DNA from: Ralstonia sp. NFACC01
GTDB lineage: Bacteria; Pseudomonadota; Gammaproteobacteria; Burkholderiales; Burkholderiaceae
DNA: 64,000 nucleotides
Assembly (NCBI RefSeq): GCF_900115545.1
Contig: NZ_FOWV01000001.1
Location: 620,001 to 684,000 of the forward strand
Direction: 5' to 3'
In this document: piece by piece, positions 34,076 to 47,576 of the stretch
Layout of the letters: every line of letters starts with the position of its first letter
Numbering within the stretch: position 1 is the first letter of the stretch
Translations under genes and position numbers: made by a program
Notes under the pieces: model-generated
The model's database searches: none
Seen by the model: the letters and a program-made list of their open reading frames with translations, nothing else
What the model was told of the DNA's origin: nothing

Positions 34076-34798
34076 TTACTTGGCGCCGTCGGGAATGAAC
34101 ACGTAGCCCAGGCCCCACACGGTCTGGATGAAGCGGGGGTTGCTGGCGTCCGGTTCGATTAGCTTGCGCAGGCGCGAAATCTGCACGTCAAGGCTGCGGT
34201 CGAACACTTCGTATTCGCGGCCGCGCGCCATTTCCATCAGTTTTTCGCGCGATAGGGGTTGGCGCGGATGGCGTGCGAACACCTTCAGCACGGAGAATTC
34301 ACCCGTCGTGAGGGTGATCTCTTCGTCGTTTTTCTTGAGCGTGCGCGTGGCCAGGTTAAGGACGAAATCGCCAAAGGCGAAGGTTTCAGGCGTCTCCGAC
34401 GGCGCACCCGGGATTTCAGCCGGACCGCGGCGGCGCAGCACGGCGTGGATGCGGGCGATCAGCTCGCGGGGGTTGAAGGGCTTGGGCAGATAATCGTCCG
34501 CGCCCATTTCGAGGCCGACAATGCGGTCGACGTCTTCGCCCTTGGCGGTGAGCATGATGATCGGCGTCTGATCGTTTGCGCCGCGCAGGCGACGGCAGAT
34601 CGACAAGCCGTCTTCACCCGGCATCATCAGGTCGAGCACGAGCAGATCGAAGCGCTCACGCAGCCAGAGTTTGTTCATGGCCGTGGCATTTTCTGCCACC
34701 AGCACCGTGAAGCCCTGTTCCCCCAGGTAACGGCGCAGCAGGTCGCGTAGGCGAGGGTCGTCGTCGACGACGAGAATCTTTTGACCGGAATTTTCCAT
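34076..34798 (-). CDS. ompR: OmpR-type response regulator
   Basis: DNA-binding regulator partnered with EnvZ, controlling porin and envelope genes in the family. The receiver domain has the acidic pocket VDDD, phospho-acceptor Asp56 (LVLDLMMPGEDG), Thr (MLTAK) and Lys106 (YLPKPF). The C-terminal winged helix contains LTTGEFSVLKVFARHP and SRLRKLIEPDASNPRFIQTVWGLGYVF. It has 240 residues. First gene of the two-gene operon; the promoter was not resolved. Confidence 0.96.
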   Translation of the reverse strand: MENSGQKILVVDDDPRLRDLLRRYLGEQGFTVLVAENATAMNKLWLRERFDLLVLDLMMPGEDGLSICRRLRGANDQTPIIMLTAKGEDVDRIVGLEMGADDYLPKPFNPRELIARIHAVLRRRGPAEIPGAPSETPETFAFGDFVLNLATRTLKKNDEEITLTTGEFSVLKVFARHPRQPLSREKLMEMARGREYEVFDRSLDVQISRLRKLIEPDASNPRFIQTVWGLGYVFIPDGAK

Positions 34799-35504: not shown

Positions 35505-37130
35505 ATGCGAATCTGTAGCACCACGATCTTCTTGGCGCTGGCCGCAGCCGGCGCGCTTTCACTGCAGCCCGCGTATGCGGCAACGCAGAACAAGCCACAT
35601 CGCCACAGCGCGCAAGCCAAGGCGCCCGCCGCCGACGAGCAGCGCCTAGACCGAGACGATGCGCGCTATTTCCTCACCCGCGTTGGCTTTGCGCCTTCCG
35701 AAAGCGAACTCGACGCCTATGCCGGACTCACGCACCGCGAAGCCGTCGACCGCGTCCTTGCCCAGACGGGCACCGTTGCCACGCAAGCGCCCCCAGCGTG
35801 GGTGAACGAGCCGATCATCCCGTACAACAAGCTGCCGGACGAAGACGCCCGCAAGGCGGCACGCCAAAAGAACGCTGCGCACGAGCTGGAGCTGCGCGCG
35901 TGGTGGATGGGCGAGATGATCAAGACGCCGTCACCGCTGACCGAGCGCATGACGCTGTTCTGGCACAACCATTTCGTTTCCAGTTCACAAAAGGTGCCGT
36001 TTGCGCAGTTGATGTACCGGCAGAACGTGCTGCTGCGGCAGAACGCGGTGGGCAACTTCGGCACGATGCTGCACGCCATCGGTAAAGACCCGGCGATGTT
36101 GATTTACCTGGATGGCGCCGAAAGCCGCAAGGGCAAGCCGAACGAGAACTTCGCTCGTGAGGTGATGGAGCTGTTCACGCTCGGCGAGGGCCATTACACC
36201 GAGCAGGACATCAAGGAAGCCGCGCGCACCTATACGGGCTGGAGCATCGACCGCGAGCACGATTTCGCCTACATCTGGCGGCCGCAGATTCATGACACGG
36301 GCGTGAAGACGGTGTTCGGCCAGAGCGGCGATTACGACGGTGACCAGATGCTCGACATCCTCCTGTCGCGCCCCGAGACGGCCAACTTCATCGTCACCAA
36401 GCTCTGGCATGAGTTCGTTTCGCCGGACGTTGATGCGGCACAGGCGCAGCGCGTGGCCGATGCCTTCCGGGCAAGCGGCTACGACATCAAAGTGGCATTG
36501 CGCGGGCTGTTCCTGACGCCGGCGTTCTGGGCGCCGCAATCGCACGCGACGCTGGTGAAGTCGCCGGTGGAGATGATTGTCGGCACGCTGAAGCAGTTCA
36601 ATGTGCAGTACACCGACCCGACGCCGTTTGCCATCAAGTCTGCGCAGTTGGGGCAGAACCTGCTGGCCCCGCCCAACGTGAAGGGCTGGCCCGGCGGCGA
36701 TGCTTGGATCAACTCGACCACGCTGCTGGGGCGCAAGCAGTTTCTTGATCAACTGTTCCGCTCGACCGAGATGAAGGCGCCCCCGGCCAAGCAACAGGCG
36801 CAACAGCAGAAGCCAGGCATGATGGTGGCCGCCATGCGCGAAGACCTGAAGCAGGGCGGCACCGTGCAGGGCCTGGGCCAGGCGCTCAAGGGCATGGGGC
36901 AGGAAGGTCGCTTCAAGCTGGCGCAGTCGCAGACGATGGTGTCGTTCAACTCAGCCAAGTGGCTTGCGCAGTTTGGCGCGGATGGAGATGACCCGCCGCA
37001 ACTTGCACCGCGCATCTCCATCCAGCGTGCGGTGTTGCCGATCGAGCCGACCGCGCCGATTCCCGTCAAGCTGGCCGGTACGGCGTACCTGCGCACGCTG
37101 ATGATGGACCCGGCTTACCAGTTGAAGTAA
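35505..37130 (+). CDS. Exported DUF1800 family protein
   Basis: 541 residues with a Sec signal peptide (MRICSTTIFLALAAAGALSLQPAYA). The body carries DUF1800 hallmarks: ARYFLTRVGFAPSESELDAYAGLT, MTLFWHNHFVSS, NENFAREVMELFTLGEGHYTEQDIKEAARTYTG (quoted in part; residues about 207-245) and PPNVKGWPGGDAWI. A Gln/Lys-rich segment lies near residue 430. DUF1800 proteins are periplasmic and almost always paired with a DUF1501 protein; the biochemical role is not established. It is 25 bases upstream of the DUF1501 gene, forming an operon. Confidence 0.9.
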   Translation: MRICSTTIFLALAAAGALSLQPAYAATQNKPHRHSAQAKAPAADEQRLDRDDARYFLTRVGFAPSESELDAYAGLTHREAVDRVLAQTGTVATQAPPAWVNEPIIPYNKLPDEDARKAARQKNAAHELELRAWWMGEMIKTPSPLTERMTLFWHNHFVSSSQKVPFAQLMYRQNVLLRQNAVGNFGTMLHAIGKDPAMLIYLDGAESRKGKPNENFAREVMELFTLGEGHYTEQDIKEAARTYTGWSIDREHDFAYIWRPQIHDTGVKTVFGQSGDYDGDQMLDILLSRPETANFIVTKLWHEFVSPDVDAAQAQRVADAFRASGYDIKVALRGLFLTPAFWAPQSHATLVKSPVEMIVGTLKQFNVQYTDPTPFAIKSAQLGQNLLAPPNVKGWPGGDAWINSTTLLGRKQFLDQLFRSTEMKAPPAKQQAQQQKPGMMVAAMREDLKQGGTVQGLGQALKGMGQEGRFKLAQSQTMVSFNSAKWLAQFGADGDDPPQLAPRISIQRAVLPIEPTAPIPVKLAGTAYLRTLMMDPAYQLK

Positions 37131-37155
37131 CGCCACCGCCGCAGGAGCACACATC

Positions 37156-38340
37156 ATGGAACGTCGCGATTTTCTGAAGGCAGGCGCCATGCTCGGCATG
37201 GGTGGCGCAGTACCGGGGATTGTCTTTGCGCAAGGGCAGGACAAGCGCAAGGGCTATGGCAACCTGCTCATCCTCATCGAACTCAAGGGCGGCAACGACG
37301 GGCTGAACACCGTGGTGCCGTACACAAGCGCGCAGTACTACGCGCTGCGGCCGCGCATCGCCGTCAAGCGGGAGCAGGTGCTGCAACTGGATGACCGCTA
37401 CGGGCTGCATCCGTCTTTGCAGGCAATGATGCCGCTGTGGCAGGCGGGTGAATTGTCGGTCGTGCAGGGGTTGTCGTATCCGCAGCCGAATCTCTCGCAC
37501 TTTCGCTCGATCGAGATCTGGGATACGGCCTCGCGCTCCGACCAATACCTGCGCGAAGGCTGGCTGACGCGTGCATTTGCCGCGAAGCCCGTGCCGCCAT
37601 CGTTCGGTGCCGATGGCGTAATCATCGGCAGCGCTGATCTTGGCCCCCTCGACGGCGGCGCACGTGCCGTGGCGCTGGCAAATCCCGATGCGTTCCTCAA
37701 TGAAGCCAAGCTGGCGATGCCTTCGCACGCGATGGGCAATGCGACGCTCGCACACGTGCTGAAAGTCGAGGCAGACATTGTCAAAGCCGCCGACGGTCTG
37801 CGTCCAAAGTCCGGCAAGTTTGCTTTCCAGACGCACTTTCCCGACGGCGGGTTCGGCAACTCGATCAAGGCGGCGATGCAGGTGGTGGCAGCGCCGGGCC
37901 ATGGCGGTGCGGATGTTGCCGTGGTGTGCCTGTCGCTCGGCAGTTTTGATACCCATACCAACCAGCAGGGCACGCAGGCGAACCTGCTGCGGCAGTTGGG
38001 CGAAGGCGTCGCTTCGCTCAAGAGCGCATTGACGGAGCTGGGCCGCTGGAATGACACGCTGATCGTCACGTATTCCGAGTTTGGCCGCCGCCCGCGCGAA
38101 AACCTGAACAACGGTACGGATCACGGCACGGCCGCCGCGCATTTCGTGGCCGGCGGCCGCGTCAAGGGCGGGCTGGCAGGGCAGGGGCCGGTGCTGGAAC
38201 GCCTGGACGGCGGCGGCAATCTCGACCCGTCGGTCGATTTCCGCTCGCTTTATGCCACGGTGCTGGAGCGCTGGTGGGGGATGGATTCGCAGCCGGTGCT
38301 GGCGGGACGGTTTGCGCCGCTGGATCTCATCAAAGCCTGA
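37156..38340 (+). CDS. Tat-exported DUF1501 family protein
   Basis: 394 residues. The twin-arginine signal RRDFLK at residues 3-8, followed by a hydrophobic AGAMLGMGGAVPGIVFA, points to export in folded form with a possible cofactor. DUF1501 signatures are KGGNDGLNTVVPY, LSHFRSIEIWD, VTYSEFGRRPREN and NGTDHGTAAAHFVAGGRV, with the Asp-His pair resembling alkaline-phosphatase/sulfatase-like metal sites. RBS GCAGGAG before ATG 37156. Its stop abuts the stop of the convergent squalene-synthase-like gene (TGATCA) with no terminator between. Confidence 0.9.
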   Translation: MERRDFLKAGAMLGMGGAVPGIVFAQGQDKRKGYGNLLILIELKGGNDGLNTVVPYTSAQYYALRPRIAVKREQVLQLDDRYGLHPSLQAMMPLWQAGELSVVQGLSYPQPNLSHFRSIEIWDTASRSDQYLREGWLTRAFAAKPVPPSFGADGVIIGSADLGPLDGGARAVALANPDAFLNEAKLAMPSHAMGNATLAHVLKVEADIVKAADGLRPKSGKFAFQTHFPDGGFGNSIKAAMQVVAAPGHGGADVAVVCLSLGSFDTHTNQQGTQANLLRQLGEGVASLKSALTELGRWNDTLIVTYSEFGRRPRENLNNGTDHGTAAAHFVAGGRVKGGLAGQGPVLERLDGGGNLDPSVDFRSLYATVLERWWGMDSQPVLAGRFAPLDLIKA

Positions 38341-39174
38341 TCAACCGCGGATCTGCGTCTTCCAGGCCAGCCACAGCTTGCGCAGCGGCGTCAGGTCCGT
38401 GCGCTGCGTGAGCACCCGGAAGCCGTCCGCTTCCACTTCGTCAAGCAGGCGCATGGCGAGCACGCCGCGAATCAGCGCCGAGCGCTGGGCGCGGCGATCT
38501 TCGGCTGGCAGCGCGGCGAGCGCTTCCTTGTACGTTGCCCGGGCGCGCTCGGCCTGAAAGGTCATCAACGGCTTGAAGCCTTCTGCATATCGGCGGTTGA
38601 ACAGATCGGCGGCCGGGACGTTGAAGCGCTGCAGCTCATCCACGGGGATGTAGATGCGGTTGTGCCGCACGTCTTCGCCCAGGTTCCGGATGAAGTGGAC
38701 AAGCTGTTCGGTCAGCGCCATCAGCCGCGCGAATTCAAGCGTGCGCGCATGCGCCTGTCCGGCAATGCGAGCCGTCAGCCGACCTGCCACGCCAGCCACC
38801 TGATCGCCGTGGCGGCGCAGATTGGGCCAATCCAGATAGCGGTTCTGCATGGCATCGGCCTCGACGCCGGCCAGCAATTCGCCCAGATGCACGGCGCCGA
38901 TATCGTAGCGGGCCAGATGCGGCAGCAATGCCTTGGCCGCCGGGTGCTCGGGGCGGCCGTCAAACAGCCGCGCCAGCTCTTGCCGCCACCACTGCAGCTT
39001 TGATTGCACGACCGCCGGATCGCTCGCATCGCGCACGGCGTCTTCCAGCTCGCGGCGCACGGCTTCCAGGGCGATGGTCGCGCGGCGGCGTTCGGGCGCC
39101 AGAAACAATACGCTGTAGTACACGTCGCTGCCGGGCGGTGCGGCCTTGTCGGCGCAGTAGTCGTCGGGGGTCAC
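38341..39174 (-). CDS. Squalene/phytoene synthase family protein (HpnD-like)
   Basis: 277 residues starting at GTG 39174 (TPDDYCADKAAPPGSDVYYSVLFL), where family homology begins; a longer in-frame start at 39279 adds a non-family leader. The fold is that of trans-isoprenyl head-to-head synthases, and the second motif is intact (NLGEDVRHNRIYIP). The first Asp-rich motif, usually REVDDVVDE, reads RELEDAVRD, so key Asp residues are missing or replaced. There are no hopanoid neighbours (hpnC, hpnE, shc). It may be a presqualene diphosphate synthase, or a non-catalytic relative; I cannot decide. Confidence 0.75.
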   Translation of the reverse strand: MTPDDYCADKAAPPGSDVYYSVLFLAPERRRATIALEAVRRELEDAVRDASDPAVVQSKLQWWRQELARLFDGRPEHPAAKALLPHLARYDIGAVHLGELLAGVEADAMQNRYLDWPNLRRHGDQVAGVAGRLTARIAGQAHARTLEFARLMALTEQLVHFIRNLGEDVRHNRIYIPVDELQRFNVPAADLFNRRYAEGFKPLMTFQAERARATYKEALAALPAEDRRAQRSALIRGVLAMRLLDEVEADGFRVLTQRTDLTPLRKLWLAWKTQIRG

Positions 39175-39297
39175 GGAAGGGCCGTCGTGTTGAGATTTGA
39201 AGCAGGGCGGCCATTCTACAGCGCGTTGCAGCGCAGCATGCCGCAAAGCCTTGCTTGAGCAGGTGCCAAGAAAAGTCAATCAGACGCGGCCGTGTCG

Positions 39298-39340
39298 TTG
39301 ACCCTGCGCATTGCCGTGGGTATATTACTGACCGGTCAGT
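39298..39340 (+). promoter_or_regulatory. RND operon promoter with palindromic TetR-like operator
   Basis: TTGACC (39298-39303), a 17-base spacer and TATATT (39321-39326). Directly after it is the perfect 14-bp palindrome ACTGACCGGTCAGT (39327-39340), covering the expected transcription start. This layout is typical of repression by a TetR-family protein. Confidence 0.75.
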
Positions 39341-39359
39341 TATTTACTGAGAGCGTGTC

Positions 39360-40568
39360 ATGCCAGCGTTGCGTTTGCCGTACCCGCATTCCGACTCCAC
39401 CGGTTTCTCCGACACGCGGTCTCGGCCGCGCACGCGTTCATTGCCGATGTTGACATCGGCCGCCTTGTTGATTGGCGCGGCACTGCTGGCCGGCTGCAGC
39501 AAGGAGGCGCCCAAGGTGCCCGAAGTGCGCCCTGTGCGCACCATGACGGTCACCAGCGAGCAGGGCGCCGGCACGGCGGAGTTCTCAGGCGACGTGCGCC
39601 CACGCATTGAATCGCGCCTGGGCTTCCGCGTGCCGGGCAAAATCGTCGCCCGCCTGGTGGATGTGGGCGCCACCGTCAAGAAAGGCCAGGTGCTCGCGCG
39701 GCTCGACCCGACTGATCTGGCCCTCGCCCAGCAATCTTCGCAGGCGCAGTTGTCCGCCGCCAAGACCGACCGCGATCTGGCTGCGGCGGATCTCAAACGC
39801 TATTCCGAGCTGTTCGCCAAGGGCTTCATCAGCGCGGCCGAACAGCAGCGCCATCAAGCCAACTATGACGCCGCCCAGGCTCGCTACGAGCAAGCCGGGG
39901 CCGGCTATCGCAACCAGGTGAACCAAGCCGGATATGCCACGCTTGAAGCCGACGCCGATGGCGTGGTGACGGGCGTCGATGCCGAAGTCGGGCAGGTGGT
40001 GTCGGCCGGTCAGCCGGTCGTGCGCGTGGCTCAGACGGCCGAGAAGGAAGTCGTGGTCGGCATTCCTGAGGACCAGGTCGATACGCTGCGCAAATCGCCC
40101 GAGGTAAGCGTCAAGTTGTGGGCCGACCAGTCGCGCAGCATTCCGGCCAAGGTGCGCGAGATTGCACCGGCGGCCGACCCGCTCACGCGCACGTACACCG
40201 TGAAGATTTCGGTACCGAATCCGCCGCCTGAACTGAGACTCGGCATGACGGCAGTGGCCACGTTTGTGCGGCCCGGCGGTGGCGCAGACAGCGGCGGCAT
40301 GGGCGTACGCGTGCCGATCAGCGCGCTGTTGCAGGATCAAGGCAAGAACGTGGTGTGGCTGTACGACGCCGCATCGCAAACGGTAAAGCCCGTGCCGGTG
40401 ACGGTGGGCGCGCCGCGCGACAACGTGCTGCTGGTGACGAGTGGGCTCCAGCCCGGCCAGACCATCGTGACCGCTGGCGTGCACCTGCTCAAGGCCGGCC
40501 AGAAGGTGATGCCGATGGCGCCGGCCGATCAGCCGTCGGCGCAGTCCGCCATCACGCCGCGCCGGTAA
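39360..40568 (+). CDS. RND efflux periplasmic adaptor (membrane fusion lipoprotein)
   Basis: 402 residues. A lipoprotein signal ends in LLAGC (Cys at about residue 46), then the HlyD/AcrA fold: a lipoyl half-motif (GFRVPGKIVARLVDVGATVKKGQVLARLD), a coiled-coil hairpin (QSSQAQLSAAKTDRDLAAADLKRYSELF) and a beta-barrel domain (YATLEADADGVVTGVDAEVGQVV). It links the inner-membrane pump to an outer-membrane channel. Start ATG 39360 follows GAGAG, 27 bases after the predicted transcription start; ATG 39447 would give a signal peptide with no basic n-region. It is 42 bases before the pump gene. No TetR gene adjoins. Confidence 0.92.
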   Translation: MPALRLPYPHSDSTGFSDTRSRPRTRSLPMLTSAALLIGAALLAGCSKEAPKVPEVRPVRTMTVTSEQGAGTAEFSGDVRPRIESRLGFRVPGKIVARLVDVGATVKKGQVLARLDPTDLALAQQSSQAQLSAAKTDRDLAAADLKRYSELFAKGFISAAEQQRHQANYDAAQARYEQAGAGYRNQVNQAGYATLEADADGVVTGVDAEVGQVVSAGQPVVRVAQTAEKEVVVGIPEDQVDTLRKSPEVSVKLWADQSRSIPAKVREIAPAADPLTRTYTVKISVPNPPPELRLGMTAVATFVRPGGGADSGGMGVRVPISALLQDQGKNVVWLYDAASQTVKPVPVTVGAPRDNVLLVTSGLQPGQTIVTAGVHLLKAGQKVMPMAPADQPSAQSAITPRR

Positions 40569-40610
40569 GCCGCATCCGGCTCCCGCCCCAACACGCCAAC
40601 CTTCGCGCGT

Positions 40611-43600
40611 ATGGAACATTCCCGTTTCAACCTGTCACGCTGGGCGCTTGAACATCAACCGCTCACGCGCTTCTTGCTGGTGGCGCTGTTGCTCGGCGGC
40701 ATCTTTGCGTATTCCAAACTGGGGCAGGATGAAGATCCGCCTTTCACCTTCCGCGCGATGGTCGTGCAGGCTTTCTGGCCCGGCGCCACGGCCGAGCAGA
40801 TGTCGCGCCAGGTGACCGACAAGATCGAGAAGGCGCTGCAGGAAGTGCCGTACGCCTGGAAGATCCGCAGCTACTCCAAGCCAGGCGAAACGCTCGTGAC
40901 CTTCCAACTGGCCGACACGTCGCCTGCCAAGGAAACGCAGCAGCTTTGGTACACCGTGCGCAAGAAAGTGGGCGATATCGCGCCCACGTTGCCGCAAGGC
41001 GTGCGCGGGCCGTACTTCAATGATGATTTCGGCGACGTGTATGGCTCGATCTATGCGCTGTCCGCCGATGGCTTTACATACCGGCAGCTCAACGACTACG
41101 CCGATGCGATTCGCCAGCAATTGCTGCGCGTGCCCAATGTCGCCAAGGTCGAATTGCTGGGCGACCAGGACGAAAAGATCTACATCGAGTTCCAGCAGGC
41201 CAAGCTGGCGCAGATGGGGATGGACATCAACAGCATCGCCACGCAGATCAGCCAGCAGAACAACATCGGCCCCAGCGGCGTGCTGGTCACGCCGACCGAC
41301 AACGTGCAGATCCGCCTGTCGGGCCAGTTCTCGGACATCCGCGATCTGGAGAACCTGACGCTGCGCGGCCCTGGCGGCACGACAAACATCCGCCTGGGCG
41401 ACATCGCCACGGTCAAGCACGGCTACGTCGACCCGCCGCACGCCAAGATGCGATTCAACGGCAAGGAGGTGATCGGCCTGGGCATCTCGATGACCAAGGG
41501 CGGCGACATCATTCAGCTTGGCAAGGACTTGCGCGCGACGGTTGACAAGATCCGCGCGAAGCTGCCGATGGGCATCGAGATGCAGCAGGTGCAGAACCAG
41601 CCGAAATCGGTGCAGAGTTCGGTGGGCGAGTTCGTGCATGTGCTGATCGAGGCCGTGGTGATCGTGCTGGGCGTGAGTTTCCTCTCGCTGGGTCTGCACA
41701 CCAAGCCGAAGCTGCGCATTGACGTGTGGCCGGGCCTGGTGGTGGGCCTGACGATCCCGCTGGTGCTGGCGGTGACGTTCCTGTTCATGAACATCTTCGA
41801 CATCGGGCTGCACAAGATTTCGCTCGGTGCGCTGATCATCGCCCTGGGTCTGCTGGTGGACGACGCGATCATCGCGGTGGAAATGATGGTGCGCAAGCTG
41901 GAAGAGGGCTTCTCCAAGATGGAGGCGGCCACCTTCGCGTACACCTCGACCGCCATGCCGATGCTGACCGGCACGCTGATCACCGCCACGGGGTTCCTTC
42001 CGGTGGGACTCGCGCGTTCGACGGTGGGTGAATACACGTTCGGCATCTTTGCCGTGACGGCATTGGCGCTGGTGCTCTCGTGGTTTGCCGCAGTGGTGTT
42101 TGTGCCGTATCTCGGCTTCCTGCTGCTGCGGACCAAATCGCATGTGGAAGGCGGTGGCCATCACGAGCTGTTCGACACGCCGTTCTACAACCGCTTCCGC
42201 GGCTGGGTGAACTGGTGCGTGGAGTATCGCAAGACGGTGATCGTGATCACGCTGGTGGCATTCGGTCTTGGCGTGTTCGGCTTCAAGTATGTCGAGAAGC
42301 AGTTCTTCCCCGATTCCAGCCGCCCCGAGCTGATGGTGGAGCTGTGGTTGCCGGAGGGCTCCAGCTTCAACCAGACCGAAGCCGAAGCGAAACGCTTTGA
42401 GGCGCTGATGCGCAAGGAGCAGAACGTTGACAGCGTGACGCTGTTCATCGGCTCCGGCGCGCCGCGGTTCTATCTGCCGCTGGACCAGATTCTTCCGCAG
42501 ACCAACGTGGCGCAGGCCATCGTGATGCCCACTTCGCTGGAGGCGCGCGAGGGCGTGCGGCAACACGTCATCGGGTTGCTCAAGTCGCAATTCCCCCATC
42601 TGCGTGGCCGCGTGAAGCTGCTGCCGAATGGGCCGCCGGTGCCGTATCCGGTGCAGTTCCGCGTGATGGGCCCGGACATTGGCGGCGTGCGCAAGATTGC
42701 CGATCAGGTCAAGGCCATCATGAGCGCCAACCCAAATACGGTGGGCGTGAACGACAACTGGAACGAAAACGTCAAGGTGCTGCGCCTGGACATCGACCAG
42801 GACAAGGCGCGCGCGCTGGGTGTGTCGACGGGGTCCATCTCGCAGGTCACGCAGACGGTGATGTCCGGTGCGCCCATCGCCCAGTACCGCGACGGCGACA
42901 AGCTGCTCGACATCGTGATGCGTCCGCAGGAGGACGAGCGCAACACGCTCGACGCACTGCAGCGCGTGCAAGTCCCGACCAGCAGTGGCCGTACGGTGCC
43001 CCTGACGCAAGTGGCGCGAGTTGGCTTCGCGTGGGAGCCCGGCGTGATCTGGCGTGAGAACCGCGACTACGGCATCACCGTGCAATCCGACGTGGTGGAC
43101 GGCGTGCAAGGCCCGACCGTGACAGCGCAGATCAACCCGCTGCTCGACAAGATTCGCGCCGACTTGCCGCCGGACTATCAGATCAAGATTGCCGGCGCGG
43201 AAGAGGAGAGTGCCAACGCGGGTGCGTCCATCGCTGCGCAGATGCCGCTGTGCATCTTCATCATCTTCACGCTGTTGATGCTGCAGCTGCACAGCTTCTC
43301 GCGCTCGGTGATGGTGTTCCTGACCGGGCCGCTGGGGCTGATTGGCGCGGCAGCCACGTTGCTGCTGCTGCGTGCGCCGATGGGCTTTGTTGCGCAACTC
43401 GGCATTACCGCGCTGATCGGGATGATCATTCGCAACTCGGTCATTCTGGTGGACCAGATCGAGCAGGACGTGGCGGCCGGCGTGCCGACGTGGAATGCCA
43501 TTGTCGAGGCGGCCGTGCGGCGCTTCCGGCCCATCATCCTGACCGCTGCGGCGGCGGTGCTGGCAATGATTCCGCTGTCGCGCAGCGTGTTCTGGGGGCC

Positions 43601-43730
43601 GATGGCGGCCGCCATCATGGGTGGCCTGATCATCGCCACGGTGTTGACGCTGCTGTTCCTGCCGGCGCTGTATGCGGCGTGGTTCCGCGTCAAGCGGCCC
43701 GAGGCGCAGGCGGCGGCGCCCGCAGCCTGA
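40611..43730 (+). CDS. RND efflux transporter permease
   Basis: 1039 residues, the AcrB/HAE1-type inner-membrane pump. Residues 15-35 form TM1, a large periplasmic pore domain follows, TM2-6 lie near 335-535, a second pore domain follows, and TM7-12 end near 1025. TM4 carries the proton-relay Asp pair (GLLVDDAIIAVEMM). Porter-domain signatures include FWPGATAEQMSRQVTDKIEKAL. The substrate cannot be read. No outer-membrane factor gene follows; the operon ends at the tRNA-Leu region, so the channel must come from elsewhere. Confidence 0.94.
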   Translation: MEHSRFNLSRWALEHQPLTRFLLVALLLGGIFAYSKLGQDEDPPFTFRAMVVQAFWPGATAEQMSRQVTDKIEKALQEVPYAWKIRSYSKPGETLVTFQLADTSPAKETQQLWYTVRKKVGDIAPTLPQGVRGPYFNDDFGDVYGSIYALSADGFTYRQLNDYADAIRQQLLRVPNVAKVELLGDQDEKIYIEFQQAKLAQMGMDINSIATQISQQNNIGPSGVLVTPTDNVQIRLSGQFSDIRDLENLTLRGPGGTTNIRLGDIATVKHGYVDPPHAKMRFNGKEVIGLGISMTKGGDIIQLGKDLRATVDKIRAKLPMGIEMQQVQNQPKSVQSSVGEFVHVLIEAVVIVLGVSFLSLGLHTKPKLRIDVWPGLVVGLTIPLVLAVTFLFMNIFDIGLHKISLGALIIALGLLVDDAIIAVEMMVRKLEEGFSKMEAATFAYTSTAMPMLTGTLITATGFLPVGLARSTVGEYTFGIFAVTALALVLSWFAAVVFVPYLGFLLLRTKSHVEGGGHHELFDTPFYNRFRGWVNWCVEYRKTVIVITLVAFGLGVFGFKYVEKQFFPDSSRPELMVELWLPEGSSFNQTEAEAKRFEALMRKEQNVDSVTLFIGSGAPRFYLPLDQILPQTNVAQAIVMPTSLEAREGVRQHVIGLLKSQFPHLRGRVKLLPNGPPVPYPVQFRVMGPDIGGVRKIADQVKAIMSANPNTVGVNDNWNENVKVLRLDIDQDKARALGVSTGSISQVTQTVMSGAPIAQYRDGDKLLDIVMRPQEDERNTLDALQRVQVPTSSGRTVPLTQVARVGFAWEPGVIWRENRDYGITVQSDVVDGVQGPTVTAQINPLLDKIRADLPPDYQIKIAGAEEESANAGASIAAQMPLCIFIIFTLLMLQLHSFSRSVMVFLTGPLGLIGAAATLLLLRAPMGFVAQLGITALIGMIIRNSVILVDQIEQDVAAGVPTWNAIVEAAVRRFRPIILTAAAAVLAMIPLSRSVFWGPMAAAIMGGLIIATVLTLLFLPALYAAWFRVKRPEAQAAAPAA

Positions 43731-43749
43731 CGTTTGCGTTCTTGGAGCA

Positions 43750-43775
43750 GGTGCGAGGGAGGGGACTCCAACCCC
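43750..43775 (-). repeat. Inverted partial copy of the tRNA-Leu 3' end
   Basis: Read on the minus strand, this 26-base stretch equals bases 43940-43965 of the tRNA-Leu gene (T-arm, acceptor 3' strand and most of CCA) with a single C-to-G mismatch in the T-loop. Weaker similarity continues a few bases into the variable loop. It lies upstream of the tRNA promoter, 20 bases after the RND pump stop. Confidence 0.85.
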
Positions 43776-43801
43776 TCTACCACGCCATGCGGGGTGGGGG
43801 A

Positions 43802-43830
43802 TGGAAACCCCCGGCCGACTGCGATATAAT
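43802..43830 (+). promoter_or_regulatory. tRNA-Leu promoter
   Basis: TGGAAA (43802-43807), a 17-base spacer and a perfect TATAAT (43825-43830), 50 bases before the mature tRNA. The -35 overlaps a GGGGG-ATGGAAA-CCCCC hairpin (43796-43812). Confidence 0.65.
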
Positions 43831-43845
43831 CGCGGGCTTCCTTTC

Positions 43846-43868
43846 CGGCGCCCTAGCTAGGGGCGCCG
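43846..43868 (+). other. Palindrome in the tRNA-Leu 5' leader
   Basis: CGGCGCCCTAG and CTAGGGGCGCCG form an 11-bp symmetric element with one bulged G, between the transcription start and the mature tRNA 5' end. It may guide leader processing. Confidence 0.55.
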
Positions 43869-43879
43869 CGATCCATCCG

Positions 43880-43966
43880 GCGAGGGTGGCGAAATTGGTA
43901 GACGCACCAGGTTTAGGTCCTGACGCCAGCAATGGTGTAGGGGTTCGAGTCCCCTCCCTCGCACCA
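43880..43966 (+). tRNA. tRNA-Leu, anticodon UAG
   Basis: A class II tRNA of 87 bases including an encoded CCA. Acceptor GCGAGGG pairs with CCCTCGC. The D-arm contains AATTGGTAGAC, the anticodon stem CCAGG/CCTGA (last pair weak) holds the loop TTTAGGT with anticodon TAG, a long variable arm follows, and the T-arm is GGGGTTCGAGTCCCC. It reads CUA and probably other CUN codons. Confidence 0.97.
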
Positions 43967-43989
43967 AAACTCCTTTGAAGATCAACGAT

Positions 43990-44017
43990 TTAGATTTTTA
44001 GGTCATTAAAAATCTAA
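43990..44017 (+). repeat. AT-rich 10-bp perfect hairpin downstream of tRNA-Leu
   Basis: TTAGATTTTT (43990-43999) and AAAAATCTAA (44008-44017) flank an 8-base loop. It is far more AT-rich than the surroundings. There is no T tract after the stem, so terminator function is doubtful. Confidence 0.65.
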
Positions 44018-44047
44018 CCGTTCTCTTGCCAGATTTACACTCGATTT

Positions 44048-44065
44048 GCCCCCATCTTTGGGGGC
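44048..44065 (+). repeat. GC hairpin
   Basis: GCCCCC-ATCTTT-GGGGGC, a perfect 6-bp stem in the stretch between tRNA-Leu and the CsbD terminator. No T run follows. Confidence 0.4.
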
Positions 44066-44115
44066 GACCTTGAGCCGTTGCGCGTGCGAGGGCAGCATAT
44101 CCGGCCCCCTGCGAG

Positions 44116-44157
44116 CCAAGAAAAAAGGGCGACCAACTCGTCGCCCTTTTTTCTTGG
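44116..44157. terminator. Strong symmetric terminator after the CsbD-like gene
   Basis: A 17-bp perfect inverted repeat (44116-44132 with 44141-44157) containing GGGCGA/TCGCCC flanked by runs of six A and six T, with an 8-base loop. It works for the leftward csbD-like transcript and possibly for rightward transcripts from the tRNA side. Confidence 0.88.
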
Positions 44158-44201
44158 TCATGCGCATCAGCGCCAGCGTCCCGCGCCCACGCGCACGCCA
44201 G

Positions 44202-44390
44202 TTAGCGGGACTTCTTCGCAATATCCTTCGCTGCTTCCTTGACGTCTCCCGCATCCTTGCGCGCTTGGCCGCCAGCCTGCTGAAGGTCGCCCTTCAATTC
44301 CCGCGCAGGATTGTTCGTCGCTTTACCCACGGCCTCGTTGACCTTGCCCTTCATTTTCTCGACAGTACCTTTCACTTGGTCCTTGTTCAT
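44202..44390 (-). CDS. CsbD-like stress response protein
   Basis: 62 residues: MNKDQVKGTVEKMKGKVNEA, then a Lys/Ala/Asp-rich helical body ending DIAKKSR. This is the CsbD family pattern (small hydrophilic general-stress protein, unknown molecular role). Start ATG 44390 after AGGAG on the minus strand; a longer in-frame start at 44423 is rejected. It ends in a strong terminator. Confidence 0.88.
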   Translation of the reverse strand: MNKDQVKGTVEKMKGKVNEAVGKATNNPARELKGDLQQAGGQARKDAGDVKEAAKDIAKKSR

Positions 44391-44462
44391 GATCCGCTCC
44401 TTTGAAAATGCGCCCTTGCGCACTGCGGATTGGTAGCAGCTGGCGTGCCCGGCGGCCAGGCG

Positions 44463-44903
44463 TTACGTGCCCAGTTGCTCGGCGAGCCCGAGAAGTATTC
44501 CCTCTGGTCCCCTGATGTAGCACAACCGATAGACGTCGCCATATTGGACGACGTCCCCGACAATGGTGGCGCCGCGTTTCTCGAGCCGGGCGAGCGTACC
44601 GTCGATGTCGTCGACGGTGAACATGATCCGCAGATAACCGAGTGCGTTGACAGGCGCGACGCGATGATCGGCGACCACGGGCGGGTTCAGAAAGCGAGAA
44701 ATCTCCACGCGGCTATGACCGTCCGGCGTGCGCATCATGGCGATCTCAACGCGCATGCCGGGCAATCCCGTGACGCCATCTGCCCAGTCGCCCTCGATCG
44801 GGGCGCGTCCCTCAAGTTCGAGGCCGAGTTCGGCGAAGAATTCTATGGCGGCATCGATGTCGGCAACGACAATACCGACGTTGTCCATACGCGTCACGGT
44901 CAT
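44463..44903 (-). CDS. VOC (glyoxalase/bleomycin-resistance fold) protein
   Basis: 146 residues with the two-module VOC fold: N-terminal RMDNVGIVVADIDAAIEFFAELGLELEG and C-terminal YLRIMFTVDDIDGTLARLEKRGATIVGDVVQYGD ending with GPEGILLGLAEQLG (quoted in part). The Glu of PEGI and the His or Glu positions typical of metal sites are partly present (RVEISRF). The substrate is unknown; it could be a dioxygenase, epimerase or binding protein. Start ATG 44903 after GAGGAAC. It is an isolated gene between the CsbD-like gene and an MFS gene, all on the minus strand. Confidence 0.8.
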   Translation of the reverse strand: MTVTRMDNVGIVVADIDAAIEFFAELGLELEGRAPIEGDWADGVTGLPGMRVEIAMMRTPDGHSRVEISRFLNPPVVADHRVAPVNALGYLRIMFTVDDIDGTLARLEKRGATIVGDVVQYGDVYRLCYIRGPEGILLGLAEQLGT

Positions 44904-45044
44904 GCGGGTTCCTCGGCCGCAAGTCTGACTTGCCAGCACTTTGCCAGTGTTTCAGTTCTTGGCGCATGGGCAAGCCAAACCATGGAGGATTCGAGCCCCC
45001 GCCGCGCCGCTCACCTCATTCTGAGATTTGTCCAGACAACGGCA

Positions 45045-46364
45045 CTACGCATCCGGCGTTCCGAGCGCCTTATTGATCCTCAGCGCCACCAACGTCCCAA
45101 CCACGCCTGAGAGCAGATACAGGCTCACCGCACCGAGCCCGAACAGCGACGACAAACCTAGCGCCACGAGCGGCGCGAATGCCGCACCGAACAGCCATCC
45201 AAAATCGGTCGTCAGCGCAGCACCGGTGTAGCGGAATCGACTTTCGAAGTTGGACGTCACCACGCCGGCCGCCTGTCCGTACGACAGCCCCAGCAGACCA
45301 AAGCCGACCAGAATGAAAATGTCCTGCCCAGCAACACCGCCATCGAGCAGCCACGGCGCGGCCAGGCTGAAGATGCCGATCAGCACGGCCATGGCCGCCA
45401 AGGTGGTGCGTCGGCCGAAACGGTCTGCGATCAGGCCGGAGACCAGCGTACCCACAAACGCAATCGCTGCGCCGATGATCTGGACGGTCAGCACGGCAGG
45501 CACCGTCTGTGTCTTGCGCAGCGACACCCATGACAGCGGAAACACGGTGACCAGGTGGAATAGCGCGTAGCTTGCCAATGCAGCAAAGGCGCCCAGGAAG
45601 ATATTGAAACCCTGGGCGTTCACCATCTGCAGAGTGCTGATGGGTTCCAGATCTTCTTCCTCAAGCAGTTGCGTGTATTCGTGCGTGACCACCAACCGCA
45701 GCCGCGCAAACAGCGCCACCACGTTGATGGCGAAGGCGACGTAGAAGGGATAGCGCCAGCCCCACTCGATAAATTCCTGAAAGTTCAGGCTGGTGTAGAG
45801 GAACAGGAACAGCGCGCCTGCAATGATGAAGCCGGTGGGGGCACCCAGTTGCCCAACCATGGCGTACCAGCCGCGCTTGTTCTCCGGTGCGTTCAGTGCA
45901 AGCAGCGATGGCAGGCCGTCCCACGAACCGCCAAAGGCGATGCCCTGCATGAAGCGGAACAGTGCCAGCAGATAGATTGCCGAATGGCCGATCGACGCAT
46001 ACGACGGCAAGAACGCAATGCCCACCGTGGCCGTGCCAAGCAGGAACAGCGATGCCGTCAGCTTGGTGCTGCGCCCCCATCGGCGCTGGATGCGCATGAA
46101 TAGCGCCGTGCCGAATGGGCGGCCGATAAAGGCGAACGAGAACACCGTGAAGCTGAACAACAGCCCAGCCAGTTCACTCGCAAACGGAAAGTACACGGTA
46201 GGGAAAACCAGCACCGAGGCAATGCCATAGACGAAAAAGTCGAAGTACTCCGACGCTCGCCCGATCACGACGCCTATGGCGATCTCTGCCGGTGCAACGT
46301 CATGGTGACCTGGTGCCGGAGGTGCAGTGGGCGACGCGCGATGCTGGTGGGTCAGACTTGCCAT
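45045..46364 (-). CDS. MFS transporter, metabolite:H+ symporter type
   Basis: 439 residues and 12 hydrophobic segments. The N-terminal pattern AIGVVIGRASEYFDFFVYGIASVLVFPTVYF is characteristic of the MHS branch (carboxylate and osmolyte symporters), and the cytoplasmic loop has IADRFGRRTTLAAM between TM8 and TM9. The His- and Pro-rich N-terminal tail is cytoplasmic. The substrate cannot be assigned. It is not adjacent to a catabolic gene; the next gene on the other side is the divergent cyo operon. Confidence 0.85.
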   Translation of the reverse strand: MASLTHQHRASPTAPPAPGHHDVAPAEIAIGVVIGRASEYFDFFVYGIASVLVFPTVYFPFASELAGLLFSFTVFSFAFIGRPFGTALFMRIQRRWGRSTKLTASLFLLGTATVGIAFLPSYASIGHSAIYLLALFRFMQGIAFGGSWDGLPSLLALNAPENKRGWYAMVGQLGAPTGFIIAGALFLFLYTSLNFQEFIEWGWRYPFYVAFAINVVALFARLRLVVTHEYTQLLEEEDLEPISTLQMVNAQGFNIFLGAFAALASYALFHLVTVFPLSWVSLRKTQTVPAVLTVQIIGAAIAFVGTLVSGLIADRFGRRTTLAAMAVLIGIFSLAAPWLLDGGVAGQDIFILVGFGLLGLSYGQAAGVVTSNFESRFRYTGAALTTDFGWLFGAAFAPLVALGLSSLFGLGAVSLYLLSGVVGTLVALRINKALGTPDA

Positions 46365-46523
46365 CGTGGAGTCTCCATCGAGATTTCGGGGGAGGGGGGT
46401 GTCGTACGGCGATCTAAAAGTCCGTCATCACAAGACCAGAATAGCGCCTAAACTGCAACGACAAGTCGAAAGATCGTTGGGCCATCCCAGCGCGACGTTA
46501 ACCAAACGCCACTTCCGAGACCC

Positions 46524-47576
46524 ATGCCACGCTTCAATGCAGTAGTGACACCCCTTGGAATTACGGGAAGGTCGCTTTGGCGAGGTGCAGCAATTGCCTT
46601 GTTGGTGACCCTTACAGGTTGTAGCCACGCCGTGCTGTTGTCGCCGGCTGGCGACATGGCGGTACGACAGCGGGACTTGATCATCATTGCGACATGCCTG
46701 ATGTTGCTGATCATCGTGCCCGTGATCTTTCTCACGCTGCTGTTTGCGTGGCGATATCGGGAAAGCGCTGAAAACGCGAACTACAACCCCGATTGGGACC
46801 ATTCCACCGTGCTGGAGCTGGCCATCTGGGCCGCGCCGCTGCTGATCATCATCACGCTGGGCGCCATCACCTGGGTCAGCACCCATCAACTGGATCCGTA
46901 TCGGCCGCTAACGCGGCTGGATCAGAATCGTCCGGTGCCTGCCGAGACCAAGCCACTCACCGTGGAAGTGGTGGCAATGGACTGGAAATGGCTGTTCGTC
47001 TATCCCGAGCAGGGCATTGCCACCGTCAACGAGCTGGCCGCCCCGGTCGACCGCCCCATTGCGTTCCGGATCACGGCTACCACGGTCATGAACGCGTTCT
47101 TCGTGCCGTCGCTGGCAGGCATGGTCTATGCGATGCCGGGCATGGAAACGAAGCTTCATGCGGTGATCAACCGGCCCGGCGTGTATGACGGGTTCTCTTC
47201 CAACTACAGCGGCGCAGGCTTTTCGCACATGCGGTTCAAGTTCCATGGGCTGTCGAACGAAGAGTTCGATCGGTGGGTCCAGCAGGTCAAGTCGTCGGGC
47301 ACGCCGTTGTCGAAGGACTCTTATCTGAAGCTGGCCAAGCCCAGCGAGAGCGAGCCCGTGCAGCGCTACGCCAGCGTGGCGCCAGACCTTTATGACCGCA
47401 TCCTGAACCGCTGTGTGGATGGCCAGGCATGCCTGGCAGACACCATGGCGAGCAACCGCAACGTAAGGCGCTTCGACCCGTCGGCTGAAATCTGTACCGC
47501 CAGCAATACGGCCGATGCCATGCCGATGTTTGCGCCGGATGCGGCCATCAACGACGGTCGAAGGCTGTTGCGGTAG
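46524..47576 (+). CDS. cyoA: Cytochrome bo3 ubiquinol oxidase subunit II
   Basis: 350 residues. The lipoprotein signal ends in LTGC, two transmembrane segments follow (about 55-77 and 95-115), then a periplasmic cupredoxin-like domain (VVAMDWKWLFVYPEQGIATVNELAAPVD, in part). The copper-A ligands of cytochrome c oxidases are absent, as expected for a quinol oxidase. The C-terminal extension is longer than in E. coli and contains four Cys residues (NRCVDGQACLADT, EICTASN). First gene of cyoABCD; the gap to cyoB is 115 bases. Confidence 0.94.
   Translation: MPRFNAVVTPLGITGRSLWRGAAIALLVTLTGCSHAVLLSPAGDMAVRQRDLIIIATCLMLLIIVPVIFLTLLFAWRYRESAENANYNPDWDHSTVLELAIWAAPLLIIITLGAITWVSTHQLDPYRPLTRLDQNRPVPAETKPLTVEVVAMDWKWLFVYPEQGIATVNELAAPVDRPIAFRITATTVMNAFFVPSLAGMVYAMPGMETKLHAVINRPGVYDGFSSNYSGAGFSHMRFKFHGLSNEEFDRWVQQVKSSGTPLSKDSYLKLAKPSESEPVQRYASVAPDLYDRILNRCVDGQACLADTMASNRNVRRFDPSAEICTASNTADAMPMFAPDAAINDGRRLLR

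Follow-up and report, generated by a model that had tools for sequence, protein, structure and literature searches.

The tRNA-Leu(UAG) gene of this Ralstonia genome is accompanied, between the end of an RND efflux pump gene and its own promoter, by a 33-nt inverted copy of its 3' part, hereafter called the stub. The stub is an inverted duplication found at one position in one genus, exact in one species and now decaying, and the tRNA gene itself points in opposite directions with respect to the same cluster of neighbours in different members of the family. From the position and the direction of the stub we infer, with a probability of about one half, that it is a remnant of the tRNA 3' end from a time when the gene faced the other way, left when the gene was inverted in place. 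It is very probably a relic of some kind, as had been suggested in an earlier, sequence-only reading of this DNA: it was detected in a single genus, it decays in a manner similar to fourfold-degenerate sites and 5 of the 16 genomes examined in that genus lack it.

The features of the locus are given below, with coordinates in the window, that is, the whole stretch of 64 kb of DNA that was analysed.

38341-39279, minus strand: squalene/phytoene synthase, an anchor gene (PF00494)
39360-40568, plus strand: membrane-fusion protein of the pump, in the syntenic cluster and beside the RND gene in the g3 loci and in g5 (PF16576)
40611-43730, plus strand: RND efflux pump gene, AcrB-type (PF00873, E 6.2e-170)
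43750-43782, minus strand: stub, inverted 33-nt copy of tRNA-Leu(UAG) nt 54-86 (inverted repeat, shuffles, genus alignment)
43802-43830, plus strand: tRNA promoter-like site, -35 TGGAAA and -10 TATAAT, between stub and tRNA
43880-43966, plus strand: tRNA-Leu(UAG) gene, anticodon TAG (ARAGORN; Rfam RF00005, 52.4 bits)
43933-43965, plus strand: 3' part of the intact tRNA-Leu(UAG) that matches the stub (ARAGORN, inverted repeat)
45045-46364, minus strand: MFS transporter, a conserved gene of Ralstonia loci that flanks the tRNA opposite the pump (PF00083, PF07690)

The stub (43750-43782) is the reverse complement of positions 43933-43965 in 30 of 33 bases (91%), with no gaps. A match of 26 bases with one mismatch, 43750-43775 against 43940-43965, had been reported before and is confirmed, and the inverted repeat extends beyond it to a full length of 33 nt, covering the T-arm, with the end of the variable arm before it and the 3' acceptor strand after it, minus the last A of CCA. 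The pump stop at 43730 lies 19 nt before the stub, and the two arms of the repeat are separated by 150 nt comprising first the promoter-like site and then the 5' part of the tRNA, which is the single tRNA called by ARAGORN in the whole window. Since the promoter-like site is located between stub and tRNA, the stub falls outside the predicted tRNA transcript, in agreement with the sequence-only reading; the -35 and -10 hexamers are the same or close in a 15-row alignment of the genus.

The stub match has a score of 24; when the 2 kb surrounding the tRNA were dinucleotide-shuffled 200 times the highest score was 11, and inverted matches elsewhere in the 64-kb window scored 10 or less. When the tRNAs of the same genome were searched for inverted matches (46 tRNA rows, with flanks of up to 1 kb on either side, within the limits of the loci), the second best scored 10. 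A generic repeat, the candidate for which a search of the genome itself had been proposed, was rejected: a query of 301 bases returned the locus, its two arms and two other tRNA-Leu genes, not many unrelated loci, and this result, together with the finding of nothing alike at the other tRNAs of the genome, rules it out.

Other elements were observed around the tRNA. About 1 kb (44046-45045) separates the tRNA from the MFS gene in the window, compared with ~33-39 nt in G009, G010 and G012, and this segment contains a 119-aa ORF with no Pfam match and a glyoxalase-like 158-aa ORF. Behind the tRNA there is a strong terminator-like hairpin (44116-44157), composed of a perfect 18-bp inverted repeat plus a T-run, which displays weak sub-threshold Rfam matches on the minus strand. 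Between the -10 and the tRNA lies a GC-rich hairpin-like leader (43846-43869, GGCGCCC...GGGGCGCC) that is alike across the genus, its loop changing. Moreover, a palindrome surrounds the -35 of the tRNA-Leu promoter (43797-43811), being GGGGATGGAAACCCC in many Ralstonia rows and broken in some, and many g3 loci have GGGGACTGGATTCCCC or near variants at a similar distance from the -10; it is possibly an operator or a structural element. That GGGGATGGAAACCCC could be a second tRNA-derived copy was rejected by eye; the g5 locus has an ACTGGAT stretch with no palindrome.

Within the genus the stub is present in 11 of 16 genomes (G000, G001, G005, G006, G007, G008, G009, G010, G014 and G015, plus a partial copy in G003, cut by a contig end) and absent in the other five (G002, G004, G011, G012 and G013), which is the outcome of the comparison with other Ralstonia genomes that had been proposed. 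This sample includes R. soli (G009), R. pickettii (G006 and G014), Ralstonia sp. A12 (G010), ASV6 (G004), UNC404CL21Col (G005) and SET104 (G012), Burkholderiaceae bacterium 26 (G001) and two metagenome assemblies (G002 and G013). In the alignment, pump end and tRNA adjoin in all 15 readable Ralstonia loci.

A pattern search allowing up to 3 mismatches matched 114 of 200 genomes drawn from the family, and among these 200 a second copy was detected only in the genus Ralstonia (G000, G001, G005, G008 and G010). A tolerant scan within 2 kb of tRNA-Leu(UAG) was carried out on 54 of the 99 genomes matched outside the genus (62 loci, all 21 genomes of g3 included); no stub was found in them, just chance scores of 11-12, and the longer g3 loci gave one score of 13, far from the tRNA. 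We designate the tRNA as "toward" or "away" according to its direction relative to the pump. In the "toward", uninverted relatives the tRNA 3' end occurs once, and it is also single in the non-Ralstonia "away" relatives, no stub being found in the latter either among the 54 genomes scanned.

In G005 the stub is identical to the tRNA (33/33), and the nine other full copies display 3 to 7 substitutions, three of the nine also having an indel; thus the ancestral copy would have been exact. Counted on the alignment, 14 nt lie between the stub and the promoter block GGG(G)ATGG in 10 of 10 full copies, and because of this constant spacing we take the ten as one event. Plain parsimony, evaluated on a weakly resolved tree and by hand on the full-length RND tree, prefers three separate gains (3 changes) over one gain with three or four losses; if the stub is the scar of an inversion about four losses are needed, namely in G013, in G004 with G011, in G012 and in G002.

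The rate of change of the stub was calculated on the weakly resolved tree, and statements on branching refer to the full-length RND tree. A total of 29 parsimony steps was obtained, compared with 38.3 expected for 33 fourfold-degenerate sites of the pump gene (P = 0.10), and when G009 and G010 were excluded the values were 20 and 25.3, respectively (P 0.20); the stub therefore changes roughly as fast as synonymous sites do. By parts of the stub, there were 7 steps in the 10 sites of the acceptor side, 9 in the 7 sites of the loop and 10 in the 6 sites of the 3' side.

The tRNA-Leu(UAG) gene is located at or near the end of a conserved cluster, formed by the genes at ~29.7-38.3 kb of the window and the squalene/phytoene synthase, to which the pump is added in g1, g3 and g5; in relatives with no pump at that place the synthase adjoins the tRNA. 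The direction of the tRNA varies between relatives. Relative to the pump, it is "away" in 15 of 15 readable Ralstonia genomes. The 21 genomes of g3, which we take to be Cupriavidus, include nine "toward", seven of them close (G147, G058, G040, G183, G171, G128 and G141) and two distant (G106 at ~8 kb, G165 at ~11 kb), and 11 "away", three of them near, at 229-254 nt (G089, G121 and G153), and eight at ~14-18 kb (G195, G189, G098, G114, G177, G159, G017 and G135), with no call for G080 (different contigs). The single g5 genome is "toward".

For genera with no pump at the locus, orientation was scored relative to an anchor gene at 34076-34798. By this measure g10 is "toward" (7), g14 and g8 are "away" (1 each), and so is g17 (1), with the synthase on the other side, while g21 has 8 "away" and 2 "toward", the synthase and the tRNA being turned as a unit in those two, and g11 has 6 "away" and 1 "toward", plus a second "toward" (L210) judged by the synthase only. 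Four loci lacking the anchor (L212, L215, L216 and L217) were left out of the count.

On the RND tree of 38 genomes, in which G003 and G080 have no orientation label, there are 4 changes of orientation, 3 of them forced by supported branches, compared with a mean of ~9 when shuffled. For the anchor gene, with 28 genomes, the best tree needs 4 changes, 2 of them forced, and the bootstraps need 3-4. In the g3 genome G147, pump and tRNA-Val keep their relative direction and the tRNA-Leu between them is reversed with respect to the window genome, the genes between pump and tRNA-Val differing from those of the window genome. As a control, flank matches in G147 were obtained for 36 of the 46 tRNA rows of the window genome (one of them only 49 nt long, and rows of one tRNA cluster sharing their flanks), the remaining 10 having none; tRNA-Leu(UAG) and tRNA-His(GUG) are the only tRNAs for which every flank match shown is reversed, whereas one Arg row and two Met rows are mixed. 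In the case of tRNA-His(GUG), it is the conserved neighbour that appears reversed between L065 (G000:C12:35898-35970) and L268 in G147.

The stub is oriented like the tRNA of the "toward" genomes. Its position and direction, together with those of the tRNA in these genomes, are most simply explained by an ancestral flip with a 33-nt duplication. In the ancestor of Ralstonia the tRNA transcription unit would have been inverted, or replaced in the opposite orientation, and a break inside the tRNA 3' end would have been repaired with an overlap of 33 nt; one 33-nt copy would have stayed behind facing the pump, and the other would have moved with the flipped, still functional tRNA. Afterwards the stub would have drifted and would have been lost in several species and, at most, its T-arm hairpin may have persisted in the pump mRNA as a weak hairpin of the 3'-UTR. 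Such an inversion need not harm the cell, since inverting the sequence in silico between the arms, both in the window and in G005, gave a tRNA-Leu callable by ARAGORN on the other strand. Among the traits looked for in an inversion that duplicates its ends, opposite orientation of the segment in relatives with the anchors kept and a single copy in the uninverted ones were found; as to a copy placed where the uninverted segment would end, the orientation agrees and the distance to the pump stop differs.

Three observations keep this reading at about one half. G013, which branches off first within the genus on the RND tree, is "away" and has no stub, which would mean that the stub was lost there or that the flip preceded it; no stub was found in the genomes scanned outside the genus; and roughly 0.7-0.8 kb separate the pump stop from the tRNA 3' end in those g3 genomes that are "toward" and close, compared with the 19 nt of the stub. 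The second duplication expected from two staggered breaks was not seen by eye, and among the genomes compared none displayed flip and stub before and after, so that the proposed link between the two is one of orientation and position.

The inverted duplication might instead have arisen at the tRNA by fold-back repair or template switching, unrelated to any flip, as a neutral relic, an origin that we consider rather unlikely. It would agree with an "away" G013 lacking the stub, with the result of the scan of 54 genomes, in which flipped and unflipped loci are equally devoid of it, and with the neutral-like decay; however, it leaves unexplained why the stub is placed behind the pump and in the "toward" orientation.

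Whatever its origin, the T-arm copy could have been retained as a hairpin in the 3'-UTR of the pump mRNA, a stabilising or transcription-ending stem, which seems unlikely to us. The stem of the self-hairpin accumulated 3 steps in 10 sites compared with 11.7 expected (P 0.009, or P 0.033 when sites are permuted within the copy), so the stub is perhaps not wholly neutral. In addition, 88.1% of 59 stem cells are paired compared with 83.4% in shuffles, a value reached by 11 of 500 of these, with slid controls giving at most 76.3%, and there is one double change, A-T to T-A, in G009. However, this double change is a single cell and is matched by 132 of 500 shuffles, the pump 3' regions of 15 genomes are not clearly better folded than their own shuffles (z from -1.14 to +1.49), there is no T-run and 5 of 16 genomes have no stub at all. 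A search for an intrinsic terminator (GC stem followed by a T-run) found no site at 43750-43800; accordingly the terminator considered in the sequence-only reading finds no support as an intrinsic one, and what remains is a weak signal suggesting that the self-hairpin is mildly protected.

The 3' end of tRNA-Leu(UAG) is used for integration in the genus, and in this respect the previous suggestion of an att-site relic fits. Tyrosine integrases (PF00589) are found directly beside the tRNA in G005 and G001, as a search for a nearby integrase was meant to reveal. A copy of tRNA nt 70-87 is located ~43 kb downstream in G005, at the end of the island, and copies of nt 71-87 and 61-87 are at island ends in G001, the latter on another contig and with its direction read from its neighbours. 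These att-like copies (17-27 nt), however, are direct and end at nt 87, whereas the stub is inverted and corresponds to nt 54-86; moreover, just 150 nt separate stub and partner, with no integrase or island in them. It is thus doubtful that the stub is the former attR of an island at the tRNA 3' end, turned by a later inversion.

Regarding these islands, they are apparently tandem in G001 (L125, L126), there is one of ~43 kb in G005 (L127, L128), and in G007 (L136) no native downstream gene was matched in the 18 kb behind tRNA-Leu, as if another island were present. A direct, att-like 21-nt near-copy of the 3' end (score 18) was also observed for tRNA-Pro(UGG) (L055, G000:C16:476316-476389), downstream and ~500 nt from the tRNA start.

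A further alternative is that tRNA-Leu(UAG) is a self-preserving invertible gene, in which, each time an inverted 3'-end copy arises upstream of the promoter, recombination between the copies flips the promoter and the tRNA body, leaving one intact tRNA and a stub. The Ralstonia stub would then be the fossil of a process that has repeatedly flipped the tRNA in the family, and the G005 copy perhaps could still be used. We find this improbable. The sample, with one genome per species, displays one orientation in the 15 readable Ralstonia genomes, and no recombinase was detected by Pfam among the ten window ORFs within 35505-47576.

It had also been proposed that pump mRNA reading through the stub pairs with the T-arm and acceptor end of the tRNA, as an antisense element or attenuator linking efflux to tRNA-Leu. 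Folding predictions for the joint transcript 43725-43970 do join the two arms (-139.2 kcal/mol, z -7.0), and the slow stem sites would also fit a protected pairing core, but any such inverted repeat would fold likewise. The tRNA sequence is the same in 15 aligned Ralstonia rows, against 32 substitution cells in the copies; of the 22 from A or C able to leave a G-U pair with the tRNA, 7 do so, equal to the random expectation of one third (these counts tally sequences, ten in number, and not events). Pairing-keeping changes being no commoner than random, antisense pairing is not being kept, and the double change of G009 breaks the pairing with the tRNA and retains the self-hairpin; considering also the five genomes with no stub, a regulatory link of this kind is highly improbable.

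With our analysis, what began as a guess about regulation becomes a matter of genome evolution: in a single bacterial family a tRNA gene has switched strand in place several times, and the stub may be the molecular footprint of one such flip. The tRNA containing the repeat has to remain intact, and so the exact ancestral sequence of the footprint is known. The change of orientation between relatives is what is new compared with the sequence-only reading, since it is invisible from the window alone. In the open-licence literature, neither inverting bacterial tRNA genes nor this repeat are described in the titles and abstracts among the matches listed. A caution also follows: an inverted piece of tRNA close to a tRNA gene is not necessarily an att site or a regulator.

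Among known systems, the attR sites and tRNA 3'-end copies of integrative elements resemble the stub in being a 3'-terminal fragment near an intact tRNA used for integration; the stub differs in being inverted, on the promoter side, longer on its 5' side and devoid of the last base, with no island between the copies. Invertons, i.e. promoters flanked by inverted repeats, share with this locus the inverted repeats around a promoter and the fact that the in-silico inversion leaves a callable tRNA-Leu, but here the neighbours searched by Pfam include no recombinase, all the readable Ralstonia genomes have one orientation and the arms are decaying. Inverted duplications at the ends of inversions, a footprint of staggered breaks or of repair, have been described in Drosophila (PMC7584159). 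The present case differs from those breakpoints in that it concerns a bacterium, a copy of 33 nt placed inside a still-functional tRNA gene and an inversion deduced from relatives, and what it shares with them is that short copies in inverted orientation bound the inverted segment.
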